Source of the DNA: Erythrobacter sp.
GTDB taxonomy: Bacteria > Pseudomonadota > Alphaproteobacteria > Sphingomonadales > Sphingomonadaceae
Reading direction: 5' to 3'
Assembly (NCBI GenBank): GCA_024642335.1
Contig: JAHEBH010000028.1
Coordinates: forward strand, 1 to 35,600
Length of the DNA: 35,600 nucleotides
Position 1 is the first letter of the stretch. Each line of letters opens with the position of its first letter. A program made the translations under genes and the position numbers. The notes beneath the pieces are model-generated. The model did no database searches. It saw only the letters and a list, made by a program, of their open reading frames with translations, and was not told the DNA's origin. Below, piece after piece: positions 7,925-27,774 of the stretch.

Positions 7925-7943
7925 GATCGGCGAACAGCCTGCT

Positions 7944-7968
7944 TGCAACCATCCATGTTGCAGTGCAA
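7944..7968. promoter_or_regulatory. TGCA-rich palindromic box upstream of nasT
   Basis: An inverted repeat TGCAAC (7944-7949), 7-nt spacer, GTTGCA (7957-7962) overlaps the decamer TGCAGTGCAA (7959-7968). The same TGCASTGCAA decamer occurs ahead of both nitrogen leader RNAs (9787-9796 and 18814-18823). It ends 11 nt before the nasT ATG, so it overlaps the nasT translation-start region or promoter. Confidence 0.5.
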
Positions 7969-7979
7969 TAGGGCGGCCC

Positions 7980-8555
7980 ATGAAGATCGCCATCGTCGAT
8001 GAAAGCGCCGTACGCGCCTCGATTATCGAGGAGGGTCTGGCAGAGTTCGACGACCGCGAAGTCTATATCCTGACCGAGCGTCAGGGCTTGCTCGCCCGGA
8101 TCGAGGAGATCGGTCCGGACATCGTGCTGATGGACCTGGGCAACCCTTCGCGTGACATGCTGGAGGAATATTTCGCCGTCAGCCGCGCCCTGGCGCGCCC
8201 CATCGCCATGTTTGTCGATGAAAGCGACGATGATGCCATTGCAGCGTCGATTGACGCAGGTGTTTCCGCCTATGTGGTGGATGGCCTTTCCAGCAATCGC
8301 ATCAAGCCCCTGCTCGATCTGGCGGTGAGGCGGTTCAATGCCTTTGCCCGGCTGCAAAACGACCTGGCCGAAGCCAAGGGCAGACTGGCAGAGCGCGAGA
8401 CGATCGATCGCGCAAAGCGCATCCTGATGGATAGCAAAAGGGTGAGCGAGCCCGAGGCCTATGCCGAATTGCGGCGCAAGGCCATGTCTTCGAACCGGCG
8501 CATTGTCGACATCGCGGAAGCGGTCGTCACGGCGCATGACCTGATGGGAGGTTGA
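7980..8555 (+). CDS. nasT: NasT, ANTAR-type antitermination regulator (191 aa)
   Basis: NasT binds leader RNAs of nitrate-assimilation operons and prevents formation of an intrinsic terminator; without nitrate it is held inactive by NasS. The N-terminal domain is receiver-like (D7, and D52 in IVLMDLGNP), but the usual conserved lysine near the end of the domain is replaced (AYVVDGL instead of a KP-type turn). Phosphorylation control is therefore doubtful, in line with NasS-based control. The C-terminal ANTAR three-helix bundle (about residues 125-190) shows the AEAKGRLAERETIDRAKRIL helix and the conserved Ala-Tyr/arginine-rich AYAELRRKAMSSNRRIVDIA stretch. NasS follows immediately. The matching RNA targets are in this window, ahead of nrtA and nirB. 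Confidence 0.92.
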   Translation: MKIAIVDESAVRASIIEEGLAEFDDREVYILTERQGLLARIEEIGPDIVLMDLGNPSRDMLEEYFAVSRALARPIAMFVDESDDDAIAASIDAGVSAYVVDGLSSNRIKPLLDLAVRRFNAFARLQNDLAEAKGRLAERETIDRAKRILMDSKRVSEPEAYAELRRKAMSSNRRIVDIAEAVVTAHDLMGG

Positions 8556-8560
8556 CGCGC

Positions 8561-9772
8561 ATGGCGACGCGAGAGCTCACGATTGGTTTCCTGCCTCTGG
8601 TTGACGCCTGCCTGCCGATCCTGGCGCAGGAACACGGCTTTGCCGAAGAGGAGGGCCTGTCCCTCACCTTCGTGCGCGATGTCAGCTGGGCCACGGTGCT
8701 TGATCGCCTTCTTTACGGACACACCGACGCGTCCCACATGGTAGCACCGCTGGCCATTGCCACCACTCTGGGCAGGGGGCGTCCTCCGCAAAAGCTGGTT
8801 GCGCCCTTTGTGCTGGGCTTGAACGGCAATGCCATCACCCTTCGCAAGGCACTGGCCGAGAAGGTGTGCGAGCCGGGCAAGTTCGGCGATCCGCGAGAGG
8901 TAGGTGCAAAGTTCAAGCAGCAGGCCGACGCGGCGCTCGCGGCAGGACGCAAGCTGCGGCTGGGCGTGGTGCATCGTTATTCGAGCCACAATTACAAGCT
9001 GCGCTACTGGTTGGCCGAATGCGGCGTGCGGCCCGATGAGGATGTCGAAATCGTCACTGTAGCGCCGCCTTTCGTCGCCGACGCATTGGCCAATGGCGAG
9101 ATCGACGGTGCCTGCGTGGGCGAACCGTGGAATTCGGTCTGCGTGGAACGCGATGTCGGCACCATCGTGCTTGCCACCGCGCAAATCTGGCGCCGCGGCG
9201 TCGAGAAGGTGCTGGCCTTGCGCGAAGACAGGCTGGAGGCGAAGCGCGAAGAAGTGGAGGCGCTTATTCGCGCCATGCGCAAGACCGGCGAGCATTTCGT
9301 CGATCCCGCAAACTGGGAACAGAATTCCCGCGTGTTGGCGAGCGAGAAATACCTTGCGGCAGATGAGCGGCTCGTGAGGCGGTCGATTTCGGACAGGCTG
9401 GTGCTGACCCATGGTGCAGAGCCGGTGCATTTCCCCGATTTCATGTTCCAGCATAGCGAGGCGGCCAATTTCCCGTGGATCAGCCAGGCAAGCTGGCTCT
9501 ATTCGCAAATGGTTCGCTGGGATCAGCTCACCTATGATGCTGCCGAGGCCAGAATGGCAGCGCAGGTCTTCCGGCCCGACGTCTACCGCAGCGCAAAATC
9601 AGGAACGCCCGGGCCCATCCCGGCGGCCAATTCCAAGGTTGAAGGCAGTGTGACGCAATTGACCCAGGTGGGTACGCAGCAGGGATCTATCACTCTGTCA
9701 GACAACAGGTTTTTTGATGGCCGTACATTCGACCCGGAGGATGTGGAGGGCTATCTCGCCTCGCTCCCATAA
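8561..9772 (+). CDS. nasS: NasS, cytoplasmic nitrate/nitrite sensor of the NrtA fold (403 aa)
   Basis: NasS is a periplasmic-binding-protein relative without a signal peptide that binds nitrate or nitrite and releases NasT. Family features are TIGFLPLVDACLPILAQEHGFA at the N-terminus, [26 protein letters not shown], and SSHNYKLRYWLAECG with the GACVGEPWN motif. The same motifs recur in NrtA three genes on, but here there is no signal sequence or lipobox. I chose ATG 8561 because GGGAGG lies 9 nt upstream inside the end of nasT. A TTG at 8552 would add three residues. It is translationally linked to nasT and followed by the first NasT-type leader. Confidence 0.9.
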   Translation: MATRELTIGFLPLVDACLPILAQEHGFAEEEGLSLTFVRDVSWATVLDRLLYGHTDASHMVAPLAIATTLGRGRPPQKLVAPFVLGLNGNAITLRKALAEKVCEPGKFGDPREVGAKFKQQADAALAAGRKLRLGVVHRYSSHNYKLRYWLAECGVRPDEDVEIVTVAPPFVADALANGEIDGACVGEPWNSVCVERDVGTIVLATAQIWRRGVEKVLALREDRLEAKREEVEALIRAMRKTGEHFVDPANWEQNSRVLASEKYLAADERLVRRSISDRLVLTHGAEPVHFPDFMFQHSEAANFPWISQASWLYSQMVRWDQLTYDAAEARMAAQVFRPDVYRSAKSGTPGPIPAANSKVEGSVTQLTQVGTQQGSITLSDNRFFDGRTFDPEDVEGYLASLP

Positions 9773-9781
9773 GTGGAAAAC

Positions 9782-9797
9782 TTTGCTGCACTGCAAA
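9782..9797. promoter_or_regulatory. TTTGC-N6-GCAAA palindromic box upstream of the nrtA leader
   Basis: TTTGC (9782-9786) and GCAAA (9793-9797) form a perfect inverted repeat with a 6-nt centre and contain the decamer TGCACTGCAA. Its twin lies at 18809-18824 before nirB. The centre is about 38 nt upstream of the proposed -10, a position suited to an activator. Confidence 0.55.
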
Positions 9798-9804
9798 AAA
9801 GCTC

Positions 9805-9833
9805 TTTACTGTCACAGGTCGAATCGCTTATTC
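9805..9833 (+). promoter_or_regulatory. Candidate sigma-70-type promoter of the nrtA-cynS unit
   Basis: TTTACT (9805-9810), a 17-nt spacer and TTATTC (9828-9833). The spacer carries TCGAATCG, which recurs in the equivalent spacer before nirB (18849-18856, immediately before TTATCA). The hexamers match consensus poorly, so the call rests on the conserved spacing between the two copies. An activator would be needed. Confidence 0.4.
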
Positions 9834-9839
9834 CGGTAC

Positions 9840-9963
9840 CCGAACGGAGCAACTGCACCCGATGATGGGTGATCGCCGGAAGCTTCGAACTGTTTCAACA
9901 TTGCGTGGCAACGTCGCCGCCCGATCTGGTTCCCCAGCGGTACCAAGTCGAGGCGGCTTTTTT
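9840..9963 (+). ncRNA. NasT-type antitermination leader of the nrtA operon
   Basis: Between the nasS stop and nrtA lies a non-coding leader. A 5-bp hairpin (9856-9860 with 9867-9871, CACCC/GGGTG) closes a 6-nt loop GATGAT. The terminator begins 44 nt after it. Between them is a GCGTGGCAAC stretch that also occurs in the nirB leader. ANTAR proteins such as NasR and NasT recognise hairpins with hexanucleotide loops (typically A at position 1 and G at position 4) just upstream of a terminator. This loop has G at position 4 but G, not A, at position 1. I could not draw a convincing second hexaloop hairpin. The 5' end is inferred from the candidate promoter. Confidence 0.65.
9916..9963 (+). terminator. 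Intrinsic terminator in the nrtA leader (attenuator)
   Basis: The arms GCCGCC-CGA (9916-9924) and TCG-A-GGCGGC (9948-9957) form a 9-bp stem with one bulged A. Inside, a small CTGG/CCAG hairpin is possible. The stem is followed directly by six Ts (9958-9963). It lies 28 nt before the nrtA start, so unless antiterminated it should stop transcription before the operon. Confidence 0.75.
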
Positions 9964-9991
9964 GTTGTGCGTCGGACTGGAGATCAGATTT

Positions 9992-11422
9992 ATGAGCCTT
10001 TCGCGCCGTGACTTTTCCAAACGCCTTTCCCTCGCTGCCATGGCCGGTATCGCCAGCCTTGCGCTGGTGTCCTGCGGATCGGGCAATGAGACATCGGGTG
10101 CGAACGTCGTCGCGGCCAACCTCGACGGTGCGATCGAGAAGCCCAACCTCAAACTGGGCTTCATCAAGCTGACCGACATGGCCCCGCTGGCGATCGCGCT
10201 GGAAAAGGGCTTCTTTGCCGAAGAGGGGCTGAATGTGCAGCTCGAACCGCAAGCCAACTGGAAGGTTCTGCTCGACGGTGTGATCGGCGGACAGCTCGAC
10301 GGTGCGCACATGCTGGCAGGCCAGCCGCTGGCGGCAACCATCGGTTATGGCACGCAGGCAGACCTGATCGCGCCGCTCAGCCTCGATCTCAACGGCAATG
10401 CCATCACGCTTTCCAACCGCGTGTGGGACATGATCAAGGACGATCTTCCCAAGGGGTCTGACGGCCGCCCCGTCCACCCGATTTCGGCTTCCTACCTGAA
10501 GCCGGTGGTCGAACAGTTCGATGCGCAGGGCAAGCCCTTCAACATGGGCATGGTCTTCCCCGTCTCCACGCATAATTACGAGCTGCGTTACTGGCTTGCC
10601 GCAGGCGGTCTTAACCCCGGCTACTATACTACCGGAGACGTGTCCGGCACGGTTTCGGCAGAGGTCAAGCTTTCCGTTACCCCGCCGCCGCAGATGCCCG
10701 CCACGCTCGAGGCAGGAACCATCGAGGGCTATTGCGTGGGCGAGCCCTGGAACCAGCAGGCCGTCTTCATGGGCATTGGTGTGCCGGTGATCACCGACGA
10801 TGAAATCTGGAACGACAATCCCGAAAAGGTTTTCGGCCTGCGCGAGGATTTCGCGGAGAAATATCCCGCCACCACGGCGGCCTTGCTGCGCGCCATTATC
10901 CGTGCGCAGGAATGGCTGGATGCGGATGGAGGTGCCAACCGTGCCGAAGCGGTCGAGATCCTCAGCCGTCCGAACTATGTTGGTGCCGATGCAGAAGTCA
11001 TCGCCGCATCCATGACCGGTGTGTTCACTTTCGAGAAGGGCGACACGCGCCCGGCTGAAGGCTTCAACATCTTTTTCGATAAATTCGCCGGCTATCCCTA
11101 TTATTCGGACGCCATCTGGTACCTCACGCAGATGCGCCGCTGGGGCCAGATCGCCGATGACAAGACCGACCAATGGTATTTCGAAACTGCTGCTGCGGTC
11201 TATCGCCCCGACCTTTACCTCGCCGCAGCCAACAAGCTGGTGGAAGGCGGCTTGATCGAGGAAAGCGATGTGCCGGAAACCGACGGTTTCCGCGCGCCGC
11301 AGAACGGCTTTATCGACGGCATCACCTATAATGGCCGCCAGCCCAACGATTACCTGTCGAAGTTCGCGATCGGCCTGCAACAAGGCCAGCGCGTGACGGC
11401 CTCGGGCGTCACGGGCAGCTAA
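9992..11422 (+). CDS. nrtA: NrtA-type nitrate (or cyanate) ABC importer binding lipoprotein (476 aa)
   Basis: High-affinity solute-binding component of the NrtABC/CynABD family. The N-terminus [11 protein letters not shown] is a twin-arginine motif, followed by a hydrophobic stretch and a lipobox LVSC at about residues 27-30, so it is probably exported folded by Tat and lipid-anchored. Binding-fold motifs shared with NasS are [68 protein letters not shown] and GYCVGEPWN. The start at 9992 has GGAG 9 nt upstream and gives a sensible signal peptide; the open frame runs further upstream only through the leader RNA. It is the first gene of the NasT-controlled unit. The family includes nitrate, nitrite, cyanate and bicarbonate binders, and the cyanase later in this operon makes cyanate a real alternative. 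Confidence 0.9.
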
Positions 11423-11427
11423 GCGAA

Positions 11428-12516
11428 ATGATGAGTGAAGGACATTCCCAGATGGCTACGGCTTATGCAGATTTGCAACCCCAGGAAGAGTTGGAGGACG
11501 GTGCCGTGACACCTCCAGAGCCTCAATCGGTTGCGGCGACAGCCGAGGTGAAGGTCGCTCCTATCAAGGAAAGCAAGCCCTCCTTCTTCGCTGCCAATCG
11601 CGACAAGATCATGCAGATGGTCGTCGCGCCAATGGCAGGCATCCTGATTTTCCTGGGCCTCTGGGCTGTCCTTGCACCGCAGGTTGATACATCCCTGGGC
11701 GCCTTGCCCGGACCGGTCGAGGTGGCTGGCCAGGGTGTAGCGCTGTTCGAGGAATGGTCCGCCGCGAACGAGGTGGAGGCGCAATTCTACGCAGACCAGG
11801 ATGCGCGCAACGCCGCCTTTGTAGAGGCCGGAACGCCGGAACGCGCAACCGAGTTCGCTTATTCCGGCCCGCCGACTTTTCTCGACCAGGTTATCACCTC
11901 GCTGCAGACGGTGGCGCTGGGCTTTATCCTGGCGACGCTGGCGGCGGTGCCGATAGGCCTCGTCTGCGGACTTTCGCCCATCGTCAACGCGGCGATCAAC
12001 CCGCTGGTGCAGATCATGAAACCGGTCAGCCCGCTGGCATGGCTGCCGATCGTGACCATGGTAATCTCCGCATTGGTAACCAGCGCGGAACCCTTGCTGC
12101 CCAAGGCCTTTATCATTTCTGCCTTGGTGGTGATGCTGTGCTCGCTCTGGCCAACGCTGATCAATACGGCGGTGGGCACGGCAAGCATCGACAAGGACCT
12201 GCTCAATGTCGGCCGCGTGCTCAGGCTCGGTTTTTTCGCCAAGTTGAGGCGGCTCGTGCTTCCGGCCTCACTTCCCTATATCTTCACCGGCATGCGCCTG
12301 TCGCTGGGCGTGGGCTGGATGGTGCTGATCGCGGCGGAAATGCTCGCGCAGAACCCCGGTCTCGGCAAGTTCGTGTGGGACGAGTTCCAGAACGGCTCCA
12401 GCCAGTCGCTCGCCCGCATCATGTTTGCAGTGGTTGTGATCGGCTTCATCGGCTTCGGTCTCGACCGGATCATGATGGCGCTGCAGGGCTTCGTTTCCAA
12501 GAACCGGACAGTGTGA
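11428..12516 (+). CDS. nrtB: NrtB-type ABC importer permease (362 aa)
   Basis: Inner-membrane subunit of the importer. A polar, proline- and glutamate-rich cytoplasmic tail of about 55 residues comes first, then a membrane segment (about 68-88, MAGILIFLGLWAVLAP). A roughly 70-residue loop follows that is probably periplasmic, then further helices from about residue 155. The cytoplasmic coupling loop that meets the ATPase is visible around SIDKDLLNVGRVLRLGFFAKLRRLVLPASLPYIFTG, with the EAA-like Gly. Two adjacent ATGs (11428, 11431) or ATG 11452 (AAGGAC upstream) could be the start; I kept the first. It is 5 nt after nrtA and 2 nt before nrtCD. The long loop and tail make it larger than many NrtB proteins. 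Confidence 0.88.
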   Translation: MMSEGHSQMATAYADLQPQEELEDGAVTPPEPQSVAATAEVKVAPIKESKPSFFAANRDKIMQMVVAPMAGILIFLGLWAVLAPQVDTSLGALPGPVEVAGQGVALFEEWSAANEVEAQFYADQDARNAAFVEAGTPERATEFAYSGPPTFLDQVITSLQTVALGFILATLAAVPIGLVCGLSPIVNAAINPLVQIMKPVSPLAWLPIVTMVISALVTSAEPLLPKAFIISALVVMLCSLWPTLINTAVGTASIDKDLLNVGRVLRLGFFAKLRRLVLPASLPYIFTGMRLSLGVGWMVLIAAEMLAQNPGLGKFVWDEFQNGSSQSLARIMFAVVVIGFIGFGLDRIMMALQGFVSKNRTV

Positions 12517-12518
12517 TC

Positions 12519-14225
12519 ATGAGCGGCGCGGCAACCCCCATCCTTTCCCTGAAGGGCGTCAGCAAGAGCTACAAAGGCCAGGGCAGCGGAACCACCCATG
12601 TGCTGGACGGGATCGATATCGAAATCGCCGAAGGCGAATTCGTCGCGATCCTGGGTTTTTCCGGTGCCGGAAAGACCACGCTGGTCAATTCGATCGCCGG
12701 GCTGGTCGAACCCGACGCGGGCGAAATCCTGCTGAAGGGCAAGGCAATTGACGGGCCGGACAAGGATCGCGGCCTGGTCTTCCAGTCCTATTCGCTCTTC
12801 CCCTGGCTGACGGTGGAACAGAATGTCGCGCTGGCGGTGGACGCGGTGCACAAGGACAGGACCAAGGCCGAGCGCGAGGCGCTGGTCAGGCAGAAGGTCG
12901 AACTGGTGGGGCTGGGCCATGCGATGGACCGCAAGCCGGCGCAGCTTTCCGGCGGTATGCGCCAGCGGGTGGCGGTTGCCCGTGCGCTGTCGATGGAACC
13001 CGAAATCCTGCTGCTCGACGAGCCGCTCTCCGCGCTCGATGCACTCACGCGTGCCAAGCTGCAGGACGAGATCGAACGTATCCGCAAGGAAGAAGGGCGC
13101 ACGATCCTGCTTGTCACCAACGATGTCGACGAGGCGCTGCTTCTGGCCGACCGTGTCGCGGTGCTTACCCCTTCGCCCGCGGCACGGATTGGCCAGATCT
13201 GGGATGTCGATGTCGCCCGCCCGCGCGATCGCGAGGCAGTGAATGACGACGTGCATTTCCAGAAGCTGCGCAAGGAAATCGTTTCCTATCTCGGCAAGCT
13301 CAACGACCAGAGCGGAAGCGTGGGCGAAAGCGCGGTCGACCTGCCCAATGTGACGCCGCTGGATCTTGCCAGTGCAGGCAAGGAAGGCCCGCCGCAGGCC
13401 TATCGCGATGCCGCCCGCAGTCCGGTCGAAAAGCGCTATCTGGAATTCTACAAGCTCGACAAGGTCTATCCCACGCCCAAAGGCCCGCTGACCGTGGTCG
13501 AGAATTTCAACCTGATCATGGACCAGGGCGAGTTCATCTCGCTGATCGGCCATTCGGGATGCGGCAAATCCACTGTGCTGACCATGGCAGCAGGACTGAA
13601 CGAGATATCCAGCGGCGCCATCGTGCTCGACAATCGCGAGATCAGCGCGGCGGGGCCGGACAAGGCGGTGGTATTCCAGGCGCCGAGCCTGATGCCCTGG
13701 CTCACCGCGCGGCAGAATGTCTCGCTGGGTGTGGAGCGCGTCTATCCGCATGCAAGCCGGGCAGAGCGGCGCGATATCGTTGACTACTATCTCGACCGTG
13801 TCGGCCTGGTCGACTCCAAGGAAAAGATGGCGGCGGAAATGTCCAACGGCATGCGTCAGCGCGTGGGTATCGCCCGTGCCTTCGCGCTCAGTCCGCGCCT
13901 GCTGCTGCTCGACGAACCTTTCGGCATGCTCGACAGCCTGACGCGCTGGGACCTGCAGGATGTGCTGGTGGAAACCTGGAACCGCACCAAGGTCACCGCG
14001 ATCATGGTGACGCACGATGTGGACGAGGCGATCCTGCTGGCGGACAAGGTGGTGATGATGACCAATGGCCCGCGCGCCACCATCGGCAAGGTGCTGGAAG
14101 TCGACCTGCCGCGTCCGCGCGATCGCAAGGCGCTGCTCGAGCATCCGAAATTCTATCAATACCGGCAGGAGGTGCTGCACTTCCTGGCGGAATATGACCA
14201 CGGACCGGCCGCAAAGGCGGCCTGA
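12519..14225 (+). CDS. NrtC-NrtD fused double ATPase of the nitrate/cyanate importer (568 aa)
   Basis: Two complete ABC ATPase domains lie in one chain. Domain 1 (about 5-240) has Walker A GFSGAGKTT, Q-loop VFQSYSLFPW, signature LSGGMRQRV (about 143-151) and Walker B ILLLDEPLSALD. A linker of about 75 residues follows. Domain 2 (about 310-560) has Walker A GHSGCGKST, Q-loop VFQAPSLMPW, signature MSNGMRQRV (441-449) and Walker B LLLLDEPFGMLD, and ends with the PRPRDRKALLEHP tail typical of Nrt ATPases. Domain 1 has Asn201 where the switch histidine belongs (LVTNDVDE), while domain 2 keeps it (H499, MVTHDVDE). The altered signature of domain 2 would sit opposite the domain 1 site, so one composite site looks weakened and the other normal. 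Unlike cyanobacterial NrtC there is no binding-protein domain. The start MSGAATP is 2 nt after nrtB. Confidence 0.9.
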   Translation: MSGAATPILSLKGVSKSYKGQGSGTTHVLDGIDIEIAEGEFVAILGFSGAGKTTLVNSIAGLVEPDAGEILLKGKAIDGPDKDRGLVFQSYSLFPWLTVEQNVALAVDAVHKDRTKAEREALVRQKVELVGLGHAMDRKPAQLSGGMRQRVAVARALSMEPEILLLDEPLSALDALTRAKLQDEIERIRKEEGRTILLVTNDVDEALLLADRVAVLTPSPAARIGQIWDVDVARPRDREAVNDDVHFQKLRKEIVSYLGKLNDQSGSVGESAVDLPNVTPLDLASAGKEGPPQAYRDAARSPVEKRYLEFYKLDKVYPTPKGPLTVVENFNLIMDQGEFISLIGHSGCGKSTVLTMAAGLNEISSGAIVLDNREISAAGPDKAVVFQAPSLMPWLTARQNVSLGVERVYPHASRAERRDIVDYYLDRVGLVDSKEKMAAEMSNGMRQRVGIARAFALSPRLLLLDEPFGMLDSLTRWDLQDVLVETWNRTKVTAIMVTHDVDEAILLADKVVMMTNGPRATIGKVLEVDLPRPRDRKALLEHPKFYQYRQEVLHFLAEYDHGPAAKAA

Positions 14226-14252
14226 CGTTCAAGGCCTTTGGGGGAGGCCGGG

Positions 14253-14304
14253 GGCAGCAAGGGGGCTGCCTTCGTGAAGACCAACATAACCGGCTGCGGC
14301 CGGT
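14253..14304 (+). other. Intercistronic stem-loops between nrtCD and the porin gene
   Basis: Two hairpins lie in the 157-nt gap: GGCAGC/GCTGCC (14253-14258, 14265-14270) and ACCGGC/GCCGGT with loop TGCG (14289-14294, 14299-14304). Neither has a T-run, so RNA processing or stability control is more likely than termination. Nothing else is seen in the gap apart from a GAGGGAG ribosome-binding site for the porin. Confidence 0.35.
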
Positions 14305-14382
14305 GCCTGGCGGGCAACGGAGCTCGTCTCTCATTCCAATCCTGGAAGGCCACTCGCTGTGGCCGTTTGAGGGAGTATCCGT

Positions 14383-15594
14383 ATGCGTTTGAAGACCTGC
14401 CTGCTCGCCGCAACCTGCATTGCCGCCACTTCCACCCCCGCCTTCGCCGCTCCGGGCGATCCGATCGTACTGGGCGACGATCTGGTCATGGACATCCTCG
14501 CCAATGCGCGTTTGCGTTATGAGACGGTCGATCAGGACAATGCCCTGGAAGATGCCGATGCCGTAACTTTGCGTGGACGCCTGGGTGTGGAATTTGCCAC
14601 CAACGGCTTCAAACTGCTGGCCGAAGGCGAGGGCACGGTGGCCCTGGGTGACAATTACAACGACACCATTCCCGGCAATGGTGCGGAACCCTATTCGGTT
14701 GTTGCCGATCCCGAGAGCCTCGAACTCAACCGGCTGCAGCTTTCCTATACCGATACCGGCTTTACCGGCACCTTTGGCCGCCAGCGCATCAACATGGGCA
14801 ACCAGCGCTTCATTGGTGCGGTTGGCTGGCGCCAGAACGAGCAGACGTTCGACGCGCTGCGGGTCCAGGTCGGAACCGGTCCTTTCAGTGCCGATGCCGC
14901 CTGGGCCATCTCGCAGCACACGATCTTTGGCCATGACAGCCCGAACCGGACATTCGATGGCGACTTCTACCTCCTGAACCTGCGCGGGGATTTCGACGTC
15001 ATCGACGTCACGGCCTATTCCTACACCATCAACTACGACACGCGCGTCGCCTTCTCTAGCCAGACCTTCGGCCTGACGGCGAGCACCGAACTTCCGCTGG
15101 GAACGACCAAGCTCAACCTTTCGGCGAGCTATGCCACACAGTCCGATGCTGGCGGCAACCTGGCCGATTACAATGCGGACTATTTCGACGTATCGGCCAG
15201 CACGTCATACGCCGGTTTCACGCTCGCTCTGAACTACGAGGAACTGGGCAGCGATGGCGGTGTCGCCGCGTTCCAGACTCCGATGGCGACGCTCCACGCT
15301 TTCCAGGGCTGGGCGGACATCTTCCTCACCACGCCCAACGCCGGTGTGCGCGATTACAACGCCACGCTGCGCAAGCAGTTCTCCGTTCCGGGCATCGGCA
15401 ATGTGACGGGGGCGGTCACCTATCACGACTTCGACAGCGACTTTGGGGGCGTCGATTACGGCTCCGAATGGGATGCCTCGCTGGGCTTCAAGCTGGGTCC
15501 GGTCAACCTGCTGGCGAAATACGCCAATTACGATGCCAACGCCCTTTCCGTGAATACGGAAAAGTTCTGGATACAGGCAGAGTACGGCTTCTGA
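14383..15594 (+). CDS. Outer-membrane beta-barrel porin, alginate-export (AlgE)-like family (403 aa)
   Basis: A signal peptide is clear: MRLKTCLLAATCIAATSTPAFA with likely cleavage after the AFA (about residue 22). The mature part is rich in alternating hydrophobic/polar strands with many Gly, Asn, Asp and Tyr residues, and the chain ends in Phe, the usual C-terminal signal for barrel assembly. Stretches such as ANARLRYETVDQDN, LEGEGTVAL-like segments and GRQRINMGNQRFIGAVGWRQNEQTFD are what I associate with the alginate_exp/porin group in alphaproteobacteria. It lies between the ABC importer and the FNT channel in a nitrogen operon, so it probably passes nitrate, nitrite or cyanate across the outer membrane. 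The ligand is inferred from context only. Confidence 0.82.
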   Translation: MRLKTCLLAATCIAATSTPAFAAPGDPIVLGDDLVMDILANARLRYETVDQDNALEDADAVTLRGRLGVEFATNGFKLLAEGEGTVALGDNYNDTIPGNGAEPYSVVADPESLELNRLQLSYTDTGFTGTFGRQRINMGNQRFIGAVGWRQNEQTFDALRVQVGTGPFSADAAWAISQHTIFGHDSPNRTFDGDFYLLNLRGDFDVIDVTAYSYTINYDTRVAFSSQTFGLTASTELPLGTTKLNLSASYATQSDAGGNLADYNADYFDVSASTSYAGFTLALNYEELGSDGGVAAFQTPMATLHAFQGWADIFLTTPNAGVRDYNATLRKQFSVPGIGNVTGAVTYHDFDSDFGGVDYGSEWDASLGFKLGPVNLLAKYANYDANALSVNTEKFWIQAEYGF

Positions 15595-15628
15595 TTCAAT
15601 GAGTTAAACCACCAGGACGGAGGGAAAC

Positions 15629-16441
15629 ATGTCCTATTTGCAACCAAGTGAGTTCGTCACCAAGCTGGTCGATGCTGGCGAAGCCAAGATCTTCATGTCG
15701 ACCAAGGACACGCTGATCCGCGCCTATATGGCCGGTGCAACACTGGCGTTAGCCGCGGCCTTTGCGGTGACCATCAACGTCCAGACCGGCCAGCCGCTGG
15801 CGGGTGCCGTGCTGTTCCCGGTGGGCTTCTGCCTGCTCTACCTGCTCGGCTATGACCTGCTCACGGGCGTCTTCGTACTCTGCCCTCTCGCAGTCTGGGA
15901 CAAGAGACCCGGATGTACCTGGGGAGGCGTCATGCGAAACTGGGGCCTGGTCTTCACCGGTAATTTCGCCGGTGCGCTGACTACTGCTGTGATGATGGCG
16001 ATCTACTTCACCTATGGCTTCCAGACCGATCCTAGCCCGGTTGGCGAAACGCTGGCAGGCGTCGGTGTCGCGCGAACATTGGGCTACGAACAATACGGTG
16101 CAGCCGGCTGGATGACCATCTTCGTGCGCGGCATGCTGTGCAACTGGATGGTTTCGACTGGTGTTGTCGGTGCCCAGGTATCGACTAGCGTTTCGGGCAA
16201 GGTTCTTGCGATGTGGATGCCGATCATGCTGTTCTTCTACATGGTCTTCGAACACTCGATCGTAAACATGTTCCTGTTCCCGACCGCGCTGATGATGGGT
16301 GGTGACTTCACTATCGGTGACTACTTCTGGTGGAACGAAATCCCGACTGTGCTGGGCAACCTTGTGGGCGGCCTGACCTTCACTGGTCTGATGCTTTATT
16401 CCACCCACGTGAAGACGGGCGCATCACGCAAGGCGGCGTGA
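15629..16441 (+). CDS. Formate/nitrite transporter (FNT) family channel (270 aa)
   Basis: FNT proteins are pentameric inner-membrane channels for nitrite, formate or related anions. Six hydrophobic helices are readable, from IRAYMAGATLALAAAFAV near residue 33 to the end. The half-helix break LLYLLGYDLLTGVF and the pore-lining histidine in FEHSIVNMFL (His near residue 210) are typical. A strong GGAGGGAAAC site precedes ATG 15629. Its place after a porin and ABC importer and before nirBD points to nitrite import or export; nirC would be the nearest name, but I leave the symbol open. Confidence 0.9.
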   Translation: MSYLQPSEFVTKLVDAGEAKIFMSTKDTLIRAYMAGATLALAAAFAVTINVQTGQPLAGAVLFPVGFCLLYLLGYDLLTGVFVLCPLAVWDKRPGCTWGGVMRNWGLVFTGNFAGALTTAVMMAIYFTYGFQTDPSPVGETLAGVGVARTLGYEQYGAAGWMTIFVRGMLCNWMVSTGVVGAQVSTSVSGKVLAMWMPIMLFFYMVFEHSIVNMFLFPTALMMGGDFTIGDYFWWNEIPTVLGNLVGGLTFTGLMLYSTHVKTGASRKAA

Positions 16442-16482
16442 TCGCAGGAGACATTCGTATCGACTGACCCCGATGCGATGGC

Positions 16483-16516
16483 GGAAGGCGGGCTTCGACG
16501 GACGGGCCCGCCTTCC
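16483..16516 (+). other. Intercistronic hairpin between FNT and kinase/phosphatase genes
   Basis: A perfect 11-bp stem GGAAGGCGGGC/GCCCGCCTTCC (16483-16493, 16506-16516) with a 12-nt loop lies in the 98-nt gap. It is followed by ATTCCTG with no T-run. It could lower read-through into the two downstream genes or protect the upstream mRNA from 3' decay. Confidence 0.5.
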
Positions 16517-16539
16517 ATTCCTGAAAGAGCACCACTTTG

Positions 16540-18336
16540 ATGCCAGTCATGGCCAAGCCACTTCTATCGATCTCGATTGGCCAGCATTCGACTGCCGGAG
16601 CCAAGTCCGAGAACCAGGATTTTCACGGCGCGCTCGTGCCCGAAGGGGCGGACCTTGCCAGCAAGGGCATTGCCTGCGTCATCGCCGACGGCATCTCCAC
16701 CAGCCAGCGTGGGGCAGAAGCGGCCGAGATCACCGTCAAATCATTCCTCAGCGATTATTATTGCACTTCCGAAGGCTGGTCGGTCCGCAAGTCAGGCGAA
16801 TGCGTGATCGGCGCCACCAACAGCTGGATGCATTCGGAAAATTCGCGCCAGCGCCCACGCGAGGAAGGCTTCGATCGCGAGGCGGCGGGCCTGATCTGCA
16901 CATTGAGCGCTCTCGTGTTCAAATCGCGCATGGCGCATGTCTTCCACATCGGAGACGGGCAGGTGATGCGCCTCGCCGAAGACCGCTGCGATGTGCTGAC
17001 CACTCCGCACCGCGTGTCGCTGGGCGGGGGTACGAGTTACCTTGGCCGCGCGCTGGGCATGAACCGCCATGTCGAAGTCGAGTATTGTCAGGCACCGTTG
17101 CAGGTGGGCGATATCTTCGTTCTTACCACAGACGGCGTGCATGAGCTTGTTGGCGAGGACGATGTTCGCAAGGCGATAGGCGTAACGGGCGATCTCGACG
17201 TAGCAGCCCGCGATCTGTGTGCTCTGGCACTGGAACGCGGCAGCACGGACAATCTCACCATCCAGCTTCTGCGTGTGGACGATCTCCCATTGGGCGAGGT
17301 GGAAGACCTGCTGGGGCAGGATACGCGCCTGCCGCCCGCACCTTTGCTCGAGGTTGGGCAAACATTCGAAGGTTACGCGATCCTCGAGAAAATCCACTCG
17401 GGCAATCGCAGCCATGCCTATCTGGCATGCGACCTGGCCGAGAATTCACCAGTGGTGATCAAGGTCCTGTCCACCGAGCAGACGCAAAACCCCGACGCGG
17501 TGGCGGCTTTGCTGCTGGAAGAATGGGTCATGCGGCGGCTCAGCCACCCCAATCTGCTGGCTGCCGCCCCCACTCATGCGCCGCGCCGCCATGTCTTCTG
17601 CGTCAGCAGGCTGGTGGAGGGCAAGAGTCTGTACAAAAGCCTGCTCGATAACGGGCCCATGCCGCTCTCGGTCGCAAGAAAGCTGGCCAGCCAGATCGCC
17701 GCGGGGCTGGAAGCCATGCACCGGCGCGAGATGCTGCACCGCGACCTGCGACCGCAGAACATCATCCTCAACGATCGCGGCCATGCCACCATCATCGATT
17801 TCGGATCAACGCAGGTCGCCGGGATCGACGAGGCCGTGCCGCGCGCGTTCGAGGACGCCGCCTTTGCCGGAACCATGCAATATTCCGCGCCCGAGCTCTT
17901 CCTGGGCGATCCCGCCAGCGTGCGCAGCGATATCTTCTCTTTGGGGGTGATCGTCTACCAGTTGCTGACGGGCGAATTGCCTTATGGCCCTCGCGTTTCG
18001 GCCGCCAGCACGCCCGCTGCGCAAAGGAAGCTACGCTACACACCAGCTACCACCCACAATCCCGACATTCCCGAATGGGTCGATGCCGCGATCGCGCGTG
18101 CCGTCTCGGTCGATCCGCGCCAGCGCTATGCCGAACCAGCGTTGTTCGTGGACGATCTGGCAGGGCCCAATCAGGAACTGCTCAAGGGAGCACATCTGCC
18201 GGCACTGCAACGCGGCTCGGTCCGCGTGTGGAAGCTCGTCTCCGCAGCGCTGGCCGCTGCACTCCTGATTTCGATTATCACCCGCCCGGATGTCTATTCG
18301 GGTCCAACCACTCCATCCGAGGAGCCAGCACCATGA
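16540..18336 (+). CDS. Bifunctional PP2C phosphatase / Ser-Thr protein kinase with C-terminal membrane anchor (598 aa)
   Basis: Residues about 5-240 are a PP2C-type phosphatase: the metal-binding motifs ENQD (N25, D27), IADGIS, GDGQVMR, TTDGVHEL and TDNLTI are all present. Residues about 265-540 are a Hanks-type kinase: VVIK (K308), HRDLRPQN (400-407) and IDFGS (420-422) are intact, with PELFL and SDIFSLGVIVYQLLTG as later motifs. The glycine-rich loop is degenerate (KIHSGNRSHAY lacks GxGxxG). A hydrophobic segment near residues 565-582 would tether it to the inner membrane, with only about 18 residues outside. I start at ATG 16540; ATG 16549 is equally possible. Similar fusions lie by nirB/nasA in Pseudomonas, so a role in the control of nitrate assimilation is likely, but targets are unknown. 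Its stop overlaps the cyanase start. Confidence 0.9.
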   Translation: MPVMAKPLLSISIGQHSTAGAKSENQDFHGALVPEGADLASKGIACVIADGISTSQRGAEAAEITVKSFLSDYYCTSEGWSVRKSGECVIGATNSWMHSENSRQRPREEGFDREAAGLICTLSALVFKSRMAHVFHIGDGQVMRLAEDRCDVLTTPHRVSLGGGTSYLGRALGMNRHVEVEYCQAPLQVGDIFVLTTDGVHELVGEDDVRKAIGVTGDLDVAARDLCALALERGSTDNLTIQLLRVDDLPLGEVEDLLGQDTRLPPAPLLEVGQTFEGYAILEKIHSGNRSHAYLACDLAENSPVVIKVLSTEQTQNPDAVAALLLEEWVMRRLSHPNLLAAAPTHAPRRHVFCVSRLVEGKSLYKSLLDNGPMPLSVARKLASQIAAGLEAMHRREMLHRDLRPQNIILNDRGHATIIDFGSTQVAGIDEAVPRAFEDAAFAGTMQYSAPELFLGDPASVRSDIFSLGVIVYQLLTGELPYGPRVSAASTPAAQRKLRYTPATTHNPDIPEWVDAAIARAVSVDPRQRYAEPALFVDDLAGPNQELLKGAHLPALQRGSVRVWKLVSAALAAALLISIITRPDVYSGPTTPSEEPAP

Positions 18337-18776
18337 TGACCAAATCCGATGTCACTTGCCTGATCCGCGCCGCCAAGCGCGAAAAGAAGATTTCATGGGC
18401 GCAGATCGCCGAGGCTGCCGGGCAGAGCGAGATATTCGTTACCTCGGCCTGCCTGGGCATGAACTCGCTGCCGCCCGAACCGGCGGCAAAGGTGGCCGAA
18501 TTGCTGGGCCTGCCGGATGAGGCTGTCACCGTGCTGACCGAATATCCGACCAAGCAGTTCGACAAGACCGTACCCACCGATCCCTGTCTCTATCGCTGGT
18601 ATGAAATCACCGGCGTCTTTGGCGAAGCCTTCAAGGAAGTGGTGCAGGAGAAATTCGGCGACGGCATCATGAGCGCGATCGATTTCGACATGGAGATCGA
18701 AAAGGTCGAGCACCCTAAGGGCGACCGCGTGAAGGTGGTGATGACCGGCAAGTTCCTGCCCTACAAGAGCTGGTAG
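18333..18776 (+). CDS. cynS: Cyanate hydratase (cyanase), 147 aa
   Basis: Cyanase converts cyanate and bicarbonate to carbamate and CO2, giving ammonia. The catalytic triad is visible as R88, E91 and S114, with the same spacing (3 and 23) as R96, E99 and S122 of the E. coli enzyme. The C-terminal GDRVKVVMTGKFLPYK strand is also typical. It is nine residues shorter than the E. coli protein, at the N-terminus. The ATG at 18333 overlaps the kinase stop (ATGATGA), with GAGGAG about 10 nt before it. As last gene of the NasT-controlled unit it ties cyanate use to the nitrate regulon. No carbonic anhydrase (cynT) or CynR regulator is seen nearby. Confidence 0.95.
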   Translation: MMTKSDVTCLIRAAKREKKISWAQIAEAAGQSEIFVTSACLGMNSLPPEPAAKVAELLGLPDEAVTVLTEYPTKQFDKTVPTDPCLYRWYEITGVFGEAFKEVVQEKFGDGIMSAIDFDMEIEKVEHPKGDRVKVVMTGKFLPYKSW

Positions 18777-18785
18777 GGGGCGAAC

Positions 18786-18803
18786 TGCCGTCTGCGGGCG
18801 GCA
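18786..18803 (+). terminator. Weak hairpin after cynS, possible end of the nrtA-cynS transcript
   Basis: A 7-bp stem including one G-T wobble (arms 18786-18792 and 18797-18803) with loop TGCG starts 10 nt after the cynS stop. There is no T-run after it. It overlaps the left arm of the larger inverted repeat around the nirB operator. Confidence 0.3.
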
Positions 18804-18841
18804 AGCCGTTTGCTGCAGTGCAAAAAAACAGGCTTGCCGCC
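18797..18841. repeat. 11-bp perfect inverted repeat enclosing the nirB TGCA box
   Basis: GGCGGCAAGCC (18797-18807) and GGCTTGCCGCC (18831-18841) are exact reverse complements separated by 23 nt that hold the TTTGC-N6-GCAAA box. The right arm contains the proposed -35. The left arm and box also give GGCAAG...TTTGCT, which resembles a sigma-54 -24/-12 element (GG and GC 10 nt apart). Confidence 0.6.
18809..18824. promoter_or_regulatory. TTTGC-N6-GCAAA palindromic box upstream of the nirB leader
   Basis: TTTGC (18809-18813) and GCAAA (18820-18824) with the decamer TGCAGTGCAA; the copy before nrtA differs by one base in the 16-nt core. Its centre is about 40 nt upstream of the proposed -10, within 2 nt of the distance seen at nrtA. 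Confidence 0.55.
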
Positions 18842-18862
18842 ACCGCATCGAATCGGTTATCA
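18834..18862 (+). promoter_or_regulatory. Candidate promoter of the nirB-cobA unit
   Basis: TTGCCG (18834-18839), a 17-nt spacer and TTATCA (18857-18862). The TCGAATCG at the end of the spacer is shared with the nrtA promoter region. A sigma-54 site overlapping the box about 40 nt upstream is an alternative that only this copy supports. Confidence 0.4.
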
Positions 18863-18868
18863 GGGTTT

Positions 18869-18978
18869 CAGCGAATGACATGCCCGTCCATTGAAGGACG
18901 ATCAGGCACAATCGCAGACAGATCTAATCTCAACGTGGCAATGGCGCCGCCAGTCTAATCAGACTTGGCGGCTCTTTT
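18869..18978 (+). ncRNA. NasT-type antitermination leader of the nirB operon
   Basis: A 5-bp hairpin CGTCC/GGACG (18885-18889, 18896-18900) closes the hexaloop ATTGAA, with A at position 1 and G at position 4 as expected of ANTAR targets. The terminator begins 45 nt after it, against 44 nt in the nrtA leader, and AACGTGGCAA lies between. The two leaders otherwise differ in sequence, including the hairpin arms, so the stem is kept by compensating changes. The 5' end is inferred from the candidate promoter. Confidence 0.7.
18946..18978 (+). terminator. Intrinsic terminator in the nirB leader (attenuator)
   Basis: GCCGCCAGTCT (18946-18956) pairs with AGAC-T-TGGCGGC (18961-18972), an 11-bp stem with one bulged T and loop AATC, followed by TCTTTT. 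It lies 29 nt before the nirB ATG, the same arrangement as at nrtA. Confidence 0.75.
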
Positions 18979-19007
18979 GCGTGCGTTGTCGGCAAGGAAA
19001 GTGGACG

Positions 19008-21488
19008 ATGAACGCCCCGACGAAGTTACCCCAACCGGCGAAGGAAAAGCTGGTTGTCATCGGCAACGGCATGGCCGGGTGCCGCGCTGTTGAGGAACTG
19101 CTGGAACGTGATCCGGACCGCTATTCGGTCACCATTTTCGGTGCCGAGCCGCGCGTGAATTACAACCGCATCATGCTTTCGCCGGTGCTCGCGGGCGAAA
19201 AGACATTCGACGAGATCGTGATCAATTCTGCCGAATGGTATGCAGAAAACGGCATCGAACTGGTCGGCGGGGATCCGGTGGAACAGATCGATCGGCAGGC
19301 GAAATCCATCATCGCGAAATCGGGCCGCGTGGAACCTTACGACAAGCTGCTGATCGCGACCGGTTCCGATCCCTTCATCATTCCAATCCCCGGCAACGAC
19401 CTGGCGGGCGTGGTCACTTTCCGCGACCTCGACGATGTCGACAAGATGCTCGCCGCTGCACAGCAGGGCGGCGATGCGGTGGTGATCGGCGGTGGCCTAT
19501 TGGGGCTGGAGGCTGCGCATGGCCTTTCGCTTCGCGGTATGAAGGTCACCGTCGTTCACCTCATGCCCGCGCTGATGGAACGCCAGCTGGATGAGGCCGC
19601 CGGATATTTGCTGCGGCAGGAACTCGAAAGTCGCGGACAGACCATCCTCACCAGCGCCAACACCAAGGTCATCCACGGTGTGGAGGGCAAGGTTGTCGGG
19701 ATCGAGCTGGAAGACGGCACCAAGGTGAAGGCAGACATCGTGGTGATGGCCGCGGGCATCAAGCCATCCACCAGCCTTGCCCGATCGGCCGACCTGGAAT
19801 GCGAACGCGGTATCGTGGTGGATGACAATATGGTCACCTCCGATTCCGATATCCTGGCAGTTGGCGAATGCGTTCAGCATCGCGGTACCTGCTACGGCCT
19901 CGTCGCGCCGCTGTGGGACATGTGCCGTTCACTGGCCGATTACCTGACCGGCGCGCCCAATGGCTATGAGGGATCGGTCACTTCGACCAAGCTCAAGGTG
20001 TCGGGGATCGATCTCTTCTCCGCTGGCGATTTCTCCGGCGGCGATGGCTGCGAGGATATCGTCATGCGCGATGCCGCGCGCGGTGTGTACAAGCGCGTGG
20101 TCCTGAAGGACGACAAGATCATCGGCGCCGTGCTCTATGGCGATACGGCGGACGGGAACTGGTATTTCGACCTCCTCAAGAAGGAGGAGGATGTCGCCGA
20201 CATCCGTGAGGGGCTGATCTTCGGCCAGGCATTTGCCAGCGGAGGCGCCCTGGCGGACCCTAATGCCGCCGTTGCTGCCTTGTCGGATGATGCAGAAATC
20301 TGCGGCTGCAACGGCGTTTCCAAGGGCAAGGTCATCTCCTGCATCGCCAAGGGCGCGCACAGCGTGGATGCGGTGCGTTCCACCTGCAAGGCATCGGCCA
20401 GCTGCGGCAGCTGCACCAATCTGGTCGAGAGCCTGCTTGCGCTGACGCTGGGCGACGATGTGCAGACCGGTCCCAGGACGCTGTGCAAATGCACCAGCTT
20501 CACCCACGACGATGTGCGCCGCCTGATCCTGGAAAAGGAACTCAAGGTCATTCCAGAGGTCATGCAGGAACTGCACTGGACGACGCCTGAAGGCTGTGCA
20601 TCCTGCCGCCCTGCGCTCAACTATTACCTGCTTTGCGCATGGCCGGGCGAATATGAGGATGATGAGAAGAGCCGCTACGTCAACGAGCGGCTGCATGCCA
20701 ATATCCAGAAGGACGGCACCTATTCTGTCGTGCCGCGTATGTGGGGCGGCCTCACCACGCCCGACGAATTGCGCGCCATTGCCGATGCGGCGGAGAAATA
20801 CGGCGCGCGCACGGTCAAGGTTACCGGCGGCCAGCGTATCGACCTGTTCGGCATCAAGAAGGAAGACCTGCCCGCGATCTGGGGGGACCTTAATGCTGCC
20901 GGCATGGTGTCCGGCCATGCCTATGGCAAGGCGCTGCGCACGGTGAAGACCTGCGTCGGCAGCGAATGGTGCCGCTTTGGAACACAGGACTCGACCGGCC
21001 TCGGCGTCAAGATAGAGAGGATGACCTGGGGCAGCTACATGCCGCACAAGTTCAAGATCGCCGTCAGCGGCTGCCCGCGCAATTGCGCCGAGGCGACGAT
21101 CAAGGACTTCGGCGTGGTCTGCGTCGACAGCGGCTACGAACTGCATGTTGGCGGCAACGGCGGCATCCATGTCCGCGCGACCGACCTGCTCTGCAAGGTG
21201 GAGACCGAAGAGCAGGCGATGGAATATTGCGCCGCCTTCATCCAGCTCTACCGTGAAGACGCACATTACCTCGAACGCACGGCTCCCTGGCTCGAACGCA
21301 AGGGGCTGGACTGGATCAAGTCGCAGCTGTTCGACGATCCCGATGCGATCAAGAACTACGCCAAGCGTTTCCGCTTTTCGCAGAAGTTCTGGCAGGTCGA
21401 TCCCTGGGCGAACCGCGCTGGCGGTGCGCATAAGGATTTGCACAGCCACCTTGCCGAAGTGCGCCCCCTTTCCATGGAGAATGCATGA
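19008..21488 (+). CDS. nirB: NADH-dependent assimilatory nitrite reductase large subunit (826 aa)
   Basis: Reduces nitrite to ammonium with six electrons from NAD(P)H in the cytoplasm. Domains in order: FAD-binding (VVIGNGMAGCRAVEELLE, about 14-31), NAD(P)-binding (AVVIGGGLLGLEAAHGL, about 155-172), a BFD-type [2Fe-2S] domain with Cys in EICGCNGVSKG and CKASASCGSC (about 430-470), and the sulfite/nitrite-reductase halves. The siroheme/[4Fe-4S] cysteines are in TCVGSEWCRFG (about 649 and 655) and SGCPRNCAEA (about 688 and 692). I start at ATG 19008 (AAGGA about 9 nt upstream); the frame upstream is leader RNA. It overlaps nirD by 4 nt. Length is normal for NirB/NasB. Confidence 0.95.
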   Translation: MNAPTKLPQPAKEKLVVIGNGMAGCRAVEELLERDPDRYSVTIFGAEPRVNYNRIMLSPVLAGEKTFDEIVINSAEWYAENGIELVGGDPVEQIDRQAKSIIAKSGRVEPYDKLLIATGSDPFIIPIPGNDLAGVVTFRDLDDVDKMLAAAQQGGDAVVIGGGLLGLEAAHGLSLRGMKVTVVHLMPALMERQLDEAAGYLLRQELESRGQTILTSANTKVIHGVEGKVVGIELEDGTKVKADIVVMAAGIKPSTSLARSADLECERGIVVDDNMVTSDSDILAVGECVQHRGTCYGLVAPLWDMCRSLADYLTGAPNGYEGSVTSTKLKVSGIDLFSAGDFSGGDGCEDIVMRDAARGVYKRVVLKDDKIIGAVLYGDTADGNWYFDLLKKEEDVADIREGLIFGQAFASGGALADPNAAVAALSDDAEICGCNGVSKGKVISCIAKGAHSVDAVRSTCKASASCGSCTNLVESLLALTLGDDVQTGPRTLCKCTSFTHDDVRRLILEKELKVIPEVMQELHWTTPEGCASCRPALNYYLLCAWPGEYEDDEKSRYVNERLHANIQKDGTYSVVPRMWGGLTTPDELRAIADAAEKYGARTVKVTGGQRIDLFGIKKEDLPAIWGDLNAAGMVSGHAYGKALRTVKTCVGSEWCRFGTQDSTGLGVKIERMTWGSYMPHKFKIAVSGCPRNCAEATIKDFGVVCVDSGYELHVGGNGGIHVRATDLLCKVETEEQAMEYCAAFIQLYREDAHYLERTAPWLERKGLDWIKSQLFDDPDAIKNYAKRFRFSQKFWQVDPWANRAGGAHKDLHSHLAEVRPLSMENA

Positions 21489-27669: not shown

Positions 27670-27774
27670 GCGGCAAGGATAGTAGGCAGCAGCGTGTCCG
27701 TCATCCCGCTTGGTGCCGGACAATGTCAACAAAGTCTCTTTTCGCAACGCAACATAGCGGCTAGGGCGCCTCCC

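Follow-up and report, generated by a model that had tools for sequence, protein, structure and literature searches.

The nitrate assimilation island of Erythrobacter sp. (assembly GCA_024642335.1, contig JAHEBH010000028.1, positions 1 to 35,600 of the forward strand; this whole stretch of 35,600 nucleotides (nt) is hereafter the window) bears a shared short box ahead of each of its three transcription units, namely nasTS, nrt and nir. This box, with the core TGCRNYGCA, is a real and conserved regulatory element and, judging from its letters, it is most likely the operator of PhaR, the regulator responding to polyhydroxybutyrate (PHB). With a probability of roughly seven in ten, PhaR operators would stand at all three units, one per transcription unit, and a repression released by PHB would add carbon-storage control above NasT. 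Directly observed, as detailed below, are the site and its conservation, the agreement with experimentally defined PhaR sites and the PhaR gene itself.

The three boxes (all features of the island are given on the plus strand unless stated otherwise) are TGTTGCAGTGCAATA at nasT (7956-7970, core TGCAGTGCA at 7959-7967), TGCTGCACTGCAAAAAAG with an A-tract at nrtA (9784-9801, core 9787-9795) and TGCTGCAGTGCAAAAAAAC with an A-tract at nirB (18811-18829, core 18814-18822). An earlier sequence-only reading had placed the decamer TGCASTGCAA at 7959-7968, 9787-9796 and 18814-18823, respectively, where it does lie, the nasT copy being also readable on the minus strand at 7958-7967; its four strand matches in the window compare with 0.16 expected from dinucleotide shuffles, of which 0/100 reached four. 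The nrtA and nirB decamers are embedded, again as had been described, in an exact TTTGC-N6-GCAAA palindrome (9782-9797 and 18809-18824), and the nasT copy shares the core and lacks the TTTGC left arm. A third exact copy of this palindrome occurs within the nasT gene (8343-8358) and, with up to two mismatches, the bare form is found 17 times in the window for 16.5 expected, i.e. at chance frequency; it was consequently rejected as a signal. Since the bare form is no commoner than chance, the information does not reside in the outer palindrome but in the inner core TGCRNYGCA together with its flanks. Across the genome to which the window belongs (2.66 Mb, 105 contigs, 98.67% complete), a motif scan found the motif to be infrequent, with 11 distinct places for the decamer, the island accounting for three (14 strand matches vs. 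7 for a reversed-pattern control), and the 16-mer TTTGCTGCASTGCAAA at 2 places exactly, none with one mismatch and 4 with two mismatches.

Phylogenetic footprinting was performed on 80 named sphingomonad loci of nirB relatives, mostly from Erythrobacteraceae and Novosphingobium, providing upstream regions with a usable match for 54 NasT, 47 NrtA and 80 NirB. The box proved to be conserved upstream of all three, the core being present in 45/47 nrtA, 62/80 nirB and 34/54 nasT regions for shuffle means of 2.8, 5.5 and 2.7, respectively, and lying off the usual distance in one, one and three of these core-bearing regions only. In 59 of the 80 loci, the 420 nt preceding nirB contain the stricter form TG[CT]TGC[AG]N[CT]GC[AG]A, and the nasT core starts 18-20 nt before the start codon in 27/34. 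The right arm is AAA in 43/45 nrtA boxes, while at nasT it is ATA in 16/34 and CAA in 11/34. In three loci (L071, L078 and L087), no box stands at nirB and one is found about 2.3 kb farther upstream, presumably at the head of a longer operon. In six others from Novosphingobium and Sphingomonas (L084, L097, L102, L103, L105 and L116), the nirB promoter carries a second TGCAGTGCA over the -35, 19-20 nt downstream of the first copy.

The resemblance to PhaR sites, which the sequence-only reading had suggested, extends to both core and flanks of sites defined experimentally in two other alphaproteobacteria. The consensus is TGCRNYGCASMA in Bradyrhizobium diazoefficiens, as derived from footprints (passages of PMC6201568), and WNWD2NYGCRNYGCRNH2WNW in Sinorhizobium meliloti (passages of PMC12542648), the R-N-Y middle being a rule common to both publications. 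All three boxes of the window agree with the core YGCRNYGCR or TGCRNYGCA; the exact TGCRNYGCASMA is found on the minus strand at nrtA and nirB, in the form TGCRNYGCAGCA, and with one mismatch at nasT (TGCACTGCAACA). When the middle was left free with the pattern TGCNNNGCA and the sites taken at the expected distance, R-N-Y was present in 136/136 (31/31 for nasT, 44/44 for nrtA and 61/61 for nirB), which are not independent trials because the windows were derived from the core search and the species are related; as a background, it was present in 750 of the 2,418 occurrences of TGCNNNGCA (31%) on both strands of the same 80 loci.

A palindromic PhaR matrix was further built from 17 sites of S. 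meliloti promoters bound efficiently by His6-PhaR, where efficient binding refers to the whole promoter fragment and exoH contributes one of its four sites (Table 3 in passages of PMC12542648). Over the 35,580 positions of the window, this matrix ranks the nirB box first (26.79), the nrtA box second (25.37) and the nasT box fifth (13.49), ranks which are unchanged when the most similar site (exoY) is dropped; for comparison, the best site in the phasin promoter of the same genome scores 26.74. The exoY site of S. meliloti, TGTTGCGATGCAAAAAAA, itself fits the nrtA/nirB consensus of the relatives. The third and fourth ranks (2255-2275 and 27737-27757) are both overlapped by open reading frames and probably arose by chance. 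Throughout the 80 loci (1.62 Mb), 187 positions score at least 13.4, of which 143 fall in the nasT, nrtA and nirB promoter windows for 4.9 expected, these windows representing 2.61% of the scanned DNA, and 150 column-permuted matrices gave a mean of 10.6 and a maximum of 66 there against 143 for the real one. Only 4/80 loci are devoid of any such site. Among the 44 sites outside the nas windows, several are strong and located 2.3-5 kb upstream of nirB, possibly corresponding to the same promoters where another gene comes first. A fortuitous repeat of a TGCA-rich word, in favor of which one could invoke the chance-level frequency of the bare gapped palindrome in the window, is hardly credible in view of the conservation over the 80 loci, which refutes it, of the matrix enrichment, and of the 258 copies of the 15-mer TGYTGCRNYGCAAWA found in 50 genomes (1-11 in each) vs. 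5 for the reversed pattern.

The sequence-only reading had anticipated a DNA-binding regulator separate from NasT and encoded outside the window, and a candidate of this kind is indeed present: the genome carries one PhaR gene, on another contig, recognized by PF07879 (E 1.2e-31) and as the TIGR01848 equivalog (150.5 bits for a cut-off of 109.45), and flanked by the genes for alanine racemase and prolyl-tRNA synthetase (ProS), the latter as an incomplete piece nearest to TIGR00408 (388 bits, under the cut-off of 437). Among PDB chains, no sequence relative of this PhaR was found at E 1. PhaR was found in 389 of the 397 genomes of the family that are at least 95% complete, as well as in 48/49 of the named genomes, a search that took 50 of the 80 named loci as input and covered 49 genomes.

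As to the reach of such a regulator, which had been proposed to govern the whole island, the box not only stands at its three units but also marks zwf, the phasin gene and, in other genomes, phaR outside of it. The phasin promoter of the same genome contains three TGCRNYGCA sites. Among the phaR promoters of relatives, 13 of the 20 read (48 were located) exhibit the core, for a shuffle mean of 1.6 and a maximum of 6, and 10 of these cores are situated 70-140 nt ahead of the codons for the conserved KKYxNRRLY. The genes next to the 15-mer were read in seven genomes (all listed sites in the present genome, G249, G250, G251, G253 and G257, and 9/10 in G256), and the 15-mer is found 56-67 nt upstream of zwf in 7/7, the copy of the present genome being a glucose-6-phosphate dehydrogenase by Pfam. 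Besides, PhaR also targets zwf in S. meliloti, the site there lying immediately upstream of the -35 (passages of PMC12542648). Further carriers of the 15-mer include, in two genomes each, the genes for a 3-oxoacid CoA-transferase subunit and for a circularly permuted ATP-grasp protein, together with malate/lactate dehydrogenase and serC, in one genome each.

Other genes accompany the box. A letter-for-letter copy of 16 nt from the nasT box, ATGTTGCAGTGCAATA, lies at G000:C25:11877-11891 (L047), directly ahead of the start codon of a circularly permuted ATP-grasp gene; this gene is also preceded by a box in G249 (L238), and G250 (L245) has a boxed transglutaminase/amidoligase-like gene. A box also stands upstream of a related DnaJ-domain protein in 7/7 genomes read (L196, L200, L210, L239, L244, L250 and L253), which is 177 amino acids long in the present genome (PF00226), with a small secreted-looking protein (MSKQLA...) on the other side of the box in the five genomes where it was seen. 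In G000:C87, finally, the box lies between a kinase-like gene and an opposite-strand PP2C-like frame, both named by eye.

Several points nevertheless weigh against PhaR as the reader of these boxes. In this clade, the link between box and PhaR is drawn from sequence. The exact core is absent from 18/80 nirB, 20/54 nasT and 2/47 nrtA upstream regions, as well as from the phaR promoter of the genome itself and from 7/20 other phaR promoters. The nas boxes are asymmetric, mostly with TGY on the left and AAA or ATA on the right, when phasin sites include TTG..CAA. In Alteraurantiacibacter aestuarii (G253), three boxes and nine 15-mer sites are kept, and PhaR was found neither by family nor by protein search. 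As for the genome G017 (L161 and L216), where nirB is present and PhaR was not found, the 15.4 kb read contain no box-like core bearing the usual flanks; this missing box lends weak support to PhaR, because nirB there belongs to a different operon. Regarding the sign of the regulation, repression is deduced from the position of the sites, and PhaR also activates some genes.

Because the nas boxes are asymmetric with respect to the TTG..CAA of phasin sites, a second protein of similar taste may exist, i.e. another regulator recognizing TGC-RNY-GCA that would run a carbon/nitrogen regulon in sphingomonads, PhaR binding the phasin-type version only. The flanks (TGY...AAA at nas vs. TTG...CAA at phasin), the boxes kept in A. 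aestuarii and the 7/20 phaR promoters devoid of the core speak in its favor. On the other side, the phasin form TGCRNYGCACAA is found in 11/34 nasT boxes, the Sinorhizobium PhaR matrix puts the nrtA and nirB boxes at the top of the window, the known PhaR regulon likewise includes zwf and the A. aestuarii case probably reflects a hole in the assembly. Such a regulator appears rather improbable. Prolyl-tRNA synthetase is an essential enzyme, and no ProS was detected in A. aestuarii at E 0.001 either, with a query that did detect the distant ProS of G017. Since this essential neighbor is also not found, the phaR region is probably unassembled in that genome, where the absence of a gene is therefore not readable as a loss; the objection is weakened without being removed, an assembly hole being most likely and a true loss still conceivable. 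In G017, ProS is of a different type (PRK12325, over the cut-off) and the absence of PhaR may consequently be real, in which case the sequences of this single genome agree with PhaR as the binder. Among the eight genomes lacking PhaR, together with G253 and, whatever its PhaR status, G216, a true NirB is present in G017 and G253 only.

The location of the boxes relative to the promoters bears on what PhaR would do. The nasT promoter can be placed at 7943-7971, with TTGCAA at 7943-7948 as -35, a 17-nt spacer and CAATAG at 7966-7971 as -10, so transcription would start at or adjoining the ATG at 7980; the box overlaps this putative -10 and its core starts 21 nt before the ATG. TTGC-like letters at the matching distance from the box are conserved across 32 aligned nasT promoters, namely those with a box at most 25 nt from the start codon (31/34) and the window copy. 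The predicted promoters of nrtA (9804-9832) and nirB (18833-18861) comprise CTTTAC (9804-9809) and CTTGCC (18833-18838), then GAATC (9821-9825 and 18850-18854) and a -10 TA (9829-9830 and 18858-18859), respectively. The distances of 38 and 40 nt from the palindrome centers to the proposed -10, as given by the sequence-only reading, are correct, and the word TCGAATCG it had noticed in both spacers has exactly two copies in the window, at 9819 and 18848, one per spacer. Considering only the promoters of relatives with a recognised CTT (39/45 for nrtA and 47/62 for nirB), the start of CTT(T/G) is followed by GAATC at 17 nt in 36/39 nrtA and 32/47 nirB promoters, and the -10 TA is present in 37/39 nrtA promoters; GAATC may be read by a second factor or denote promoters of a special class. 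With respect to the predicted starts, the core centers lie at about -50 (nrtA) and -52 (nirB), just upstream of the -35, which is close to the approximately 47-53 of the PhaR targets described in the S. meliloti passages.

Repression is favored because the nasT box covers the -10 and because the S. meliloti sites at about 47-53 mark repressed genes. Should PhaR bind, the odds are well on the side of a repression lifted by PHB. Conversely, PhaR could activate nrtA and nirB while repressing nasT, in which case PHB accumulation would lower nitrate uptake. Weak -35 and -10 hexamers with an upstream site around -50 would suit such an activator, PhaR-activated genes do exist in S. meliloti, seven of them with the motif (passages of PMC12542648), and passages on the B. 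diazoefficiens fixR-nifA promoter report a PhaR box at -38 and an operon expressed at a lower level in the phaR mutant. Yet the S. meliloti sites at 47 (phaP1 and phaP2) and 53 (zwf) belong to repressed genes, and the motif is enriched among repressed genes in the same passages, the activated carriers being only seven, so that activation, although the main rival to repression, appears unlikely.

In the favored scheme, where PhaR is a repressor, the binding, its sign and the physiology are deduced from the observations above. At low PHB, PhaR would repress nasTS, nrt and nir and, bound over the -10 of nasT, it would block the polymerase. Under carbon excess and nitrogen shortage, PHB would accumulate, PhaR would be sequestered on the granules and the promoters would open. 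Nitrate would come into play at the following step, sensed by NasS-NasT at the terminators of the leaders, and the inputs of the island would be PHB via PhaR at initiation, nitrate via NasS-NasT at the leader, plus whatever reads GAATC.

Sites for other regulators were also considered. FNR/FixK-type sites have arms of the form TTGAT-N4-ATCAA, to which the TTGCT...TGCAA of nrtA and nirB does not correspond, and this type was discarded; the first T of the left-arm TTG is present in only 22/59 nirB boxes of relatives. NtrC sites follow the pattern TGCAC-N5-GTGCA, and neither this pattern with up to two mismatches nor YGCM-N4-TTNNT-RGCA with up to one has a match in the nasT, nrtA and nirB promoters, in a scan for these two NtrC-type patterns; NtrC sites were rejected on this ground. 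General nitrogen control is exerted on nasT of Paracoccus denitrificans, which is under NtrBC with a site mutated and tested (passages of PMC5424462), but the present box is TGC-N3-GCA and not TGC-N11-GCA, and control by NtrC or NtrX is highly improbable here.

Regarding the genes of the island, Pfam identifies an ANTAR protein (nasT, 7980-8555, PF03861, E 2e-17), its NMT1-like partner (nasS, 8552-9772, PF13379), which we take to be the nitrate sensor by analogy with the known NasS-NasT pair, the nitrate-binding protein NrtA (9992-11422, PF13379), a permease, an ABC ATPase, an alginate-export-like outer membrane protein, a formate/nitrite transporter, a kinase-phosphatase, a cyanase, the large subunit of the assimilatory nitrite reductase NirB (19008-21488, PF07992, PF01077 and PF03460), a Rieske protein (nirD) and a molybdopterin reductase. 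The kinase-phosphatase is a PP2C phosphatase fused to a Ser/Thr kinase (16537-18336), and the cyanase gene (18348-18776, PF02560 and PF21291) lies between it and the nirB promoter. Ahead of nrtA, a leader (9833-9970) can be delineated from sequence and fold, with the terminator hairpin GCCGCC...GGCGGC-TTTTTT, and another ahead of nirB (18862-18985) from its fold, which also includes a terminator hairpin; both end with a G+C hairpin followed by T's. The fold is marked for nirB (z -3.57; 0/200 shuffles as stable) and weak for nrtA (z -1.10; 24/200). Rfam at gathering scores returned tRNA only and assigned no family to these leaders. Both fit what is expected of NasT antitermination targets, a role taken from known NasT systems.

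The nasT-nasS pair, the leader hairpins and the terminator are as in the NasS-NasT systems of Paracoccus, Azotobacter, Pseudomonas and Bradyrhizobium. The upstream input differs, being NtrC in P. denitrificans (passages of PMC5424462) and here a PhaR-type box with no NtrC-type pattern in the promoters. With the PhaR (AniA) systems of S. meliloti (passages of PMC12542648) and B. diazoefficiens (passages of PMC6201568; PMC10888616), the box shares the core TGCRNYGCA and AT-rich arms, and the zwf, phasin and phaR promoters as well as a PhaR family gene are in common. The targets are different, since nasT, nrtA and nirB are concerned here, whereas the S. meliloti passages name napB alone among nitrate genes (PMC12542648) and the nitrogen genes linked to PhaR in the B. 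diazoefficiens passages are nap, nirK and nifR, with no assimilatory nas/nir operon (PMC6201568). In the B. diazoefficiens phaR mutant, nap and nirK rise, and nirK and nifR bear PhaR-like sites (passages of PMC6201568). The PHB regulator is thus already linked to nitrogen oxides in that species, but to respiratory genes and, as its authors suggest in these passages, via FixK2 and NnrR; here, unlike those denitrification genes, assimilatory operons have their own conserved box. In S. meliloti PHB-cycle mutants, changes in nitrogen genes were tied to a FixK-like motif (passages of PMC5596199). Among the matches listed from the open-licence literature, i.e. with subscription papers not covered, there is no report of PhaR sites at assimilatory nas operons. 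PhaR being known as a regulator, its use on an assimilatory nitrate island appears to be new within that literature.

The finding puts forward a candidate for the island's missing regulator across a whole bacterial family, and it would provide nas genes with a general control in promoters that show no NtrC-type site. A broader generalization, which we put forward only tentatively, is that in Erythrobacteraceae and Novosphingobium PHB acting via PhaR would be a direct general-nitrogen input replacing NtrC, with nasT, nrtA and nirB derepressed only in the course of carbon storage, and with GAATC belonging to another factor, or to a particular class of promoter, that works in concert with it. PHB is usually viewed as an outcome of nitrogen shortage. 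If PhaR operators do lie on the genes for nitrate uptake, reduction and sensing, PHB would become an input instead, and it is the carbon surplus that would decide when the cell takes up nitrate.

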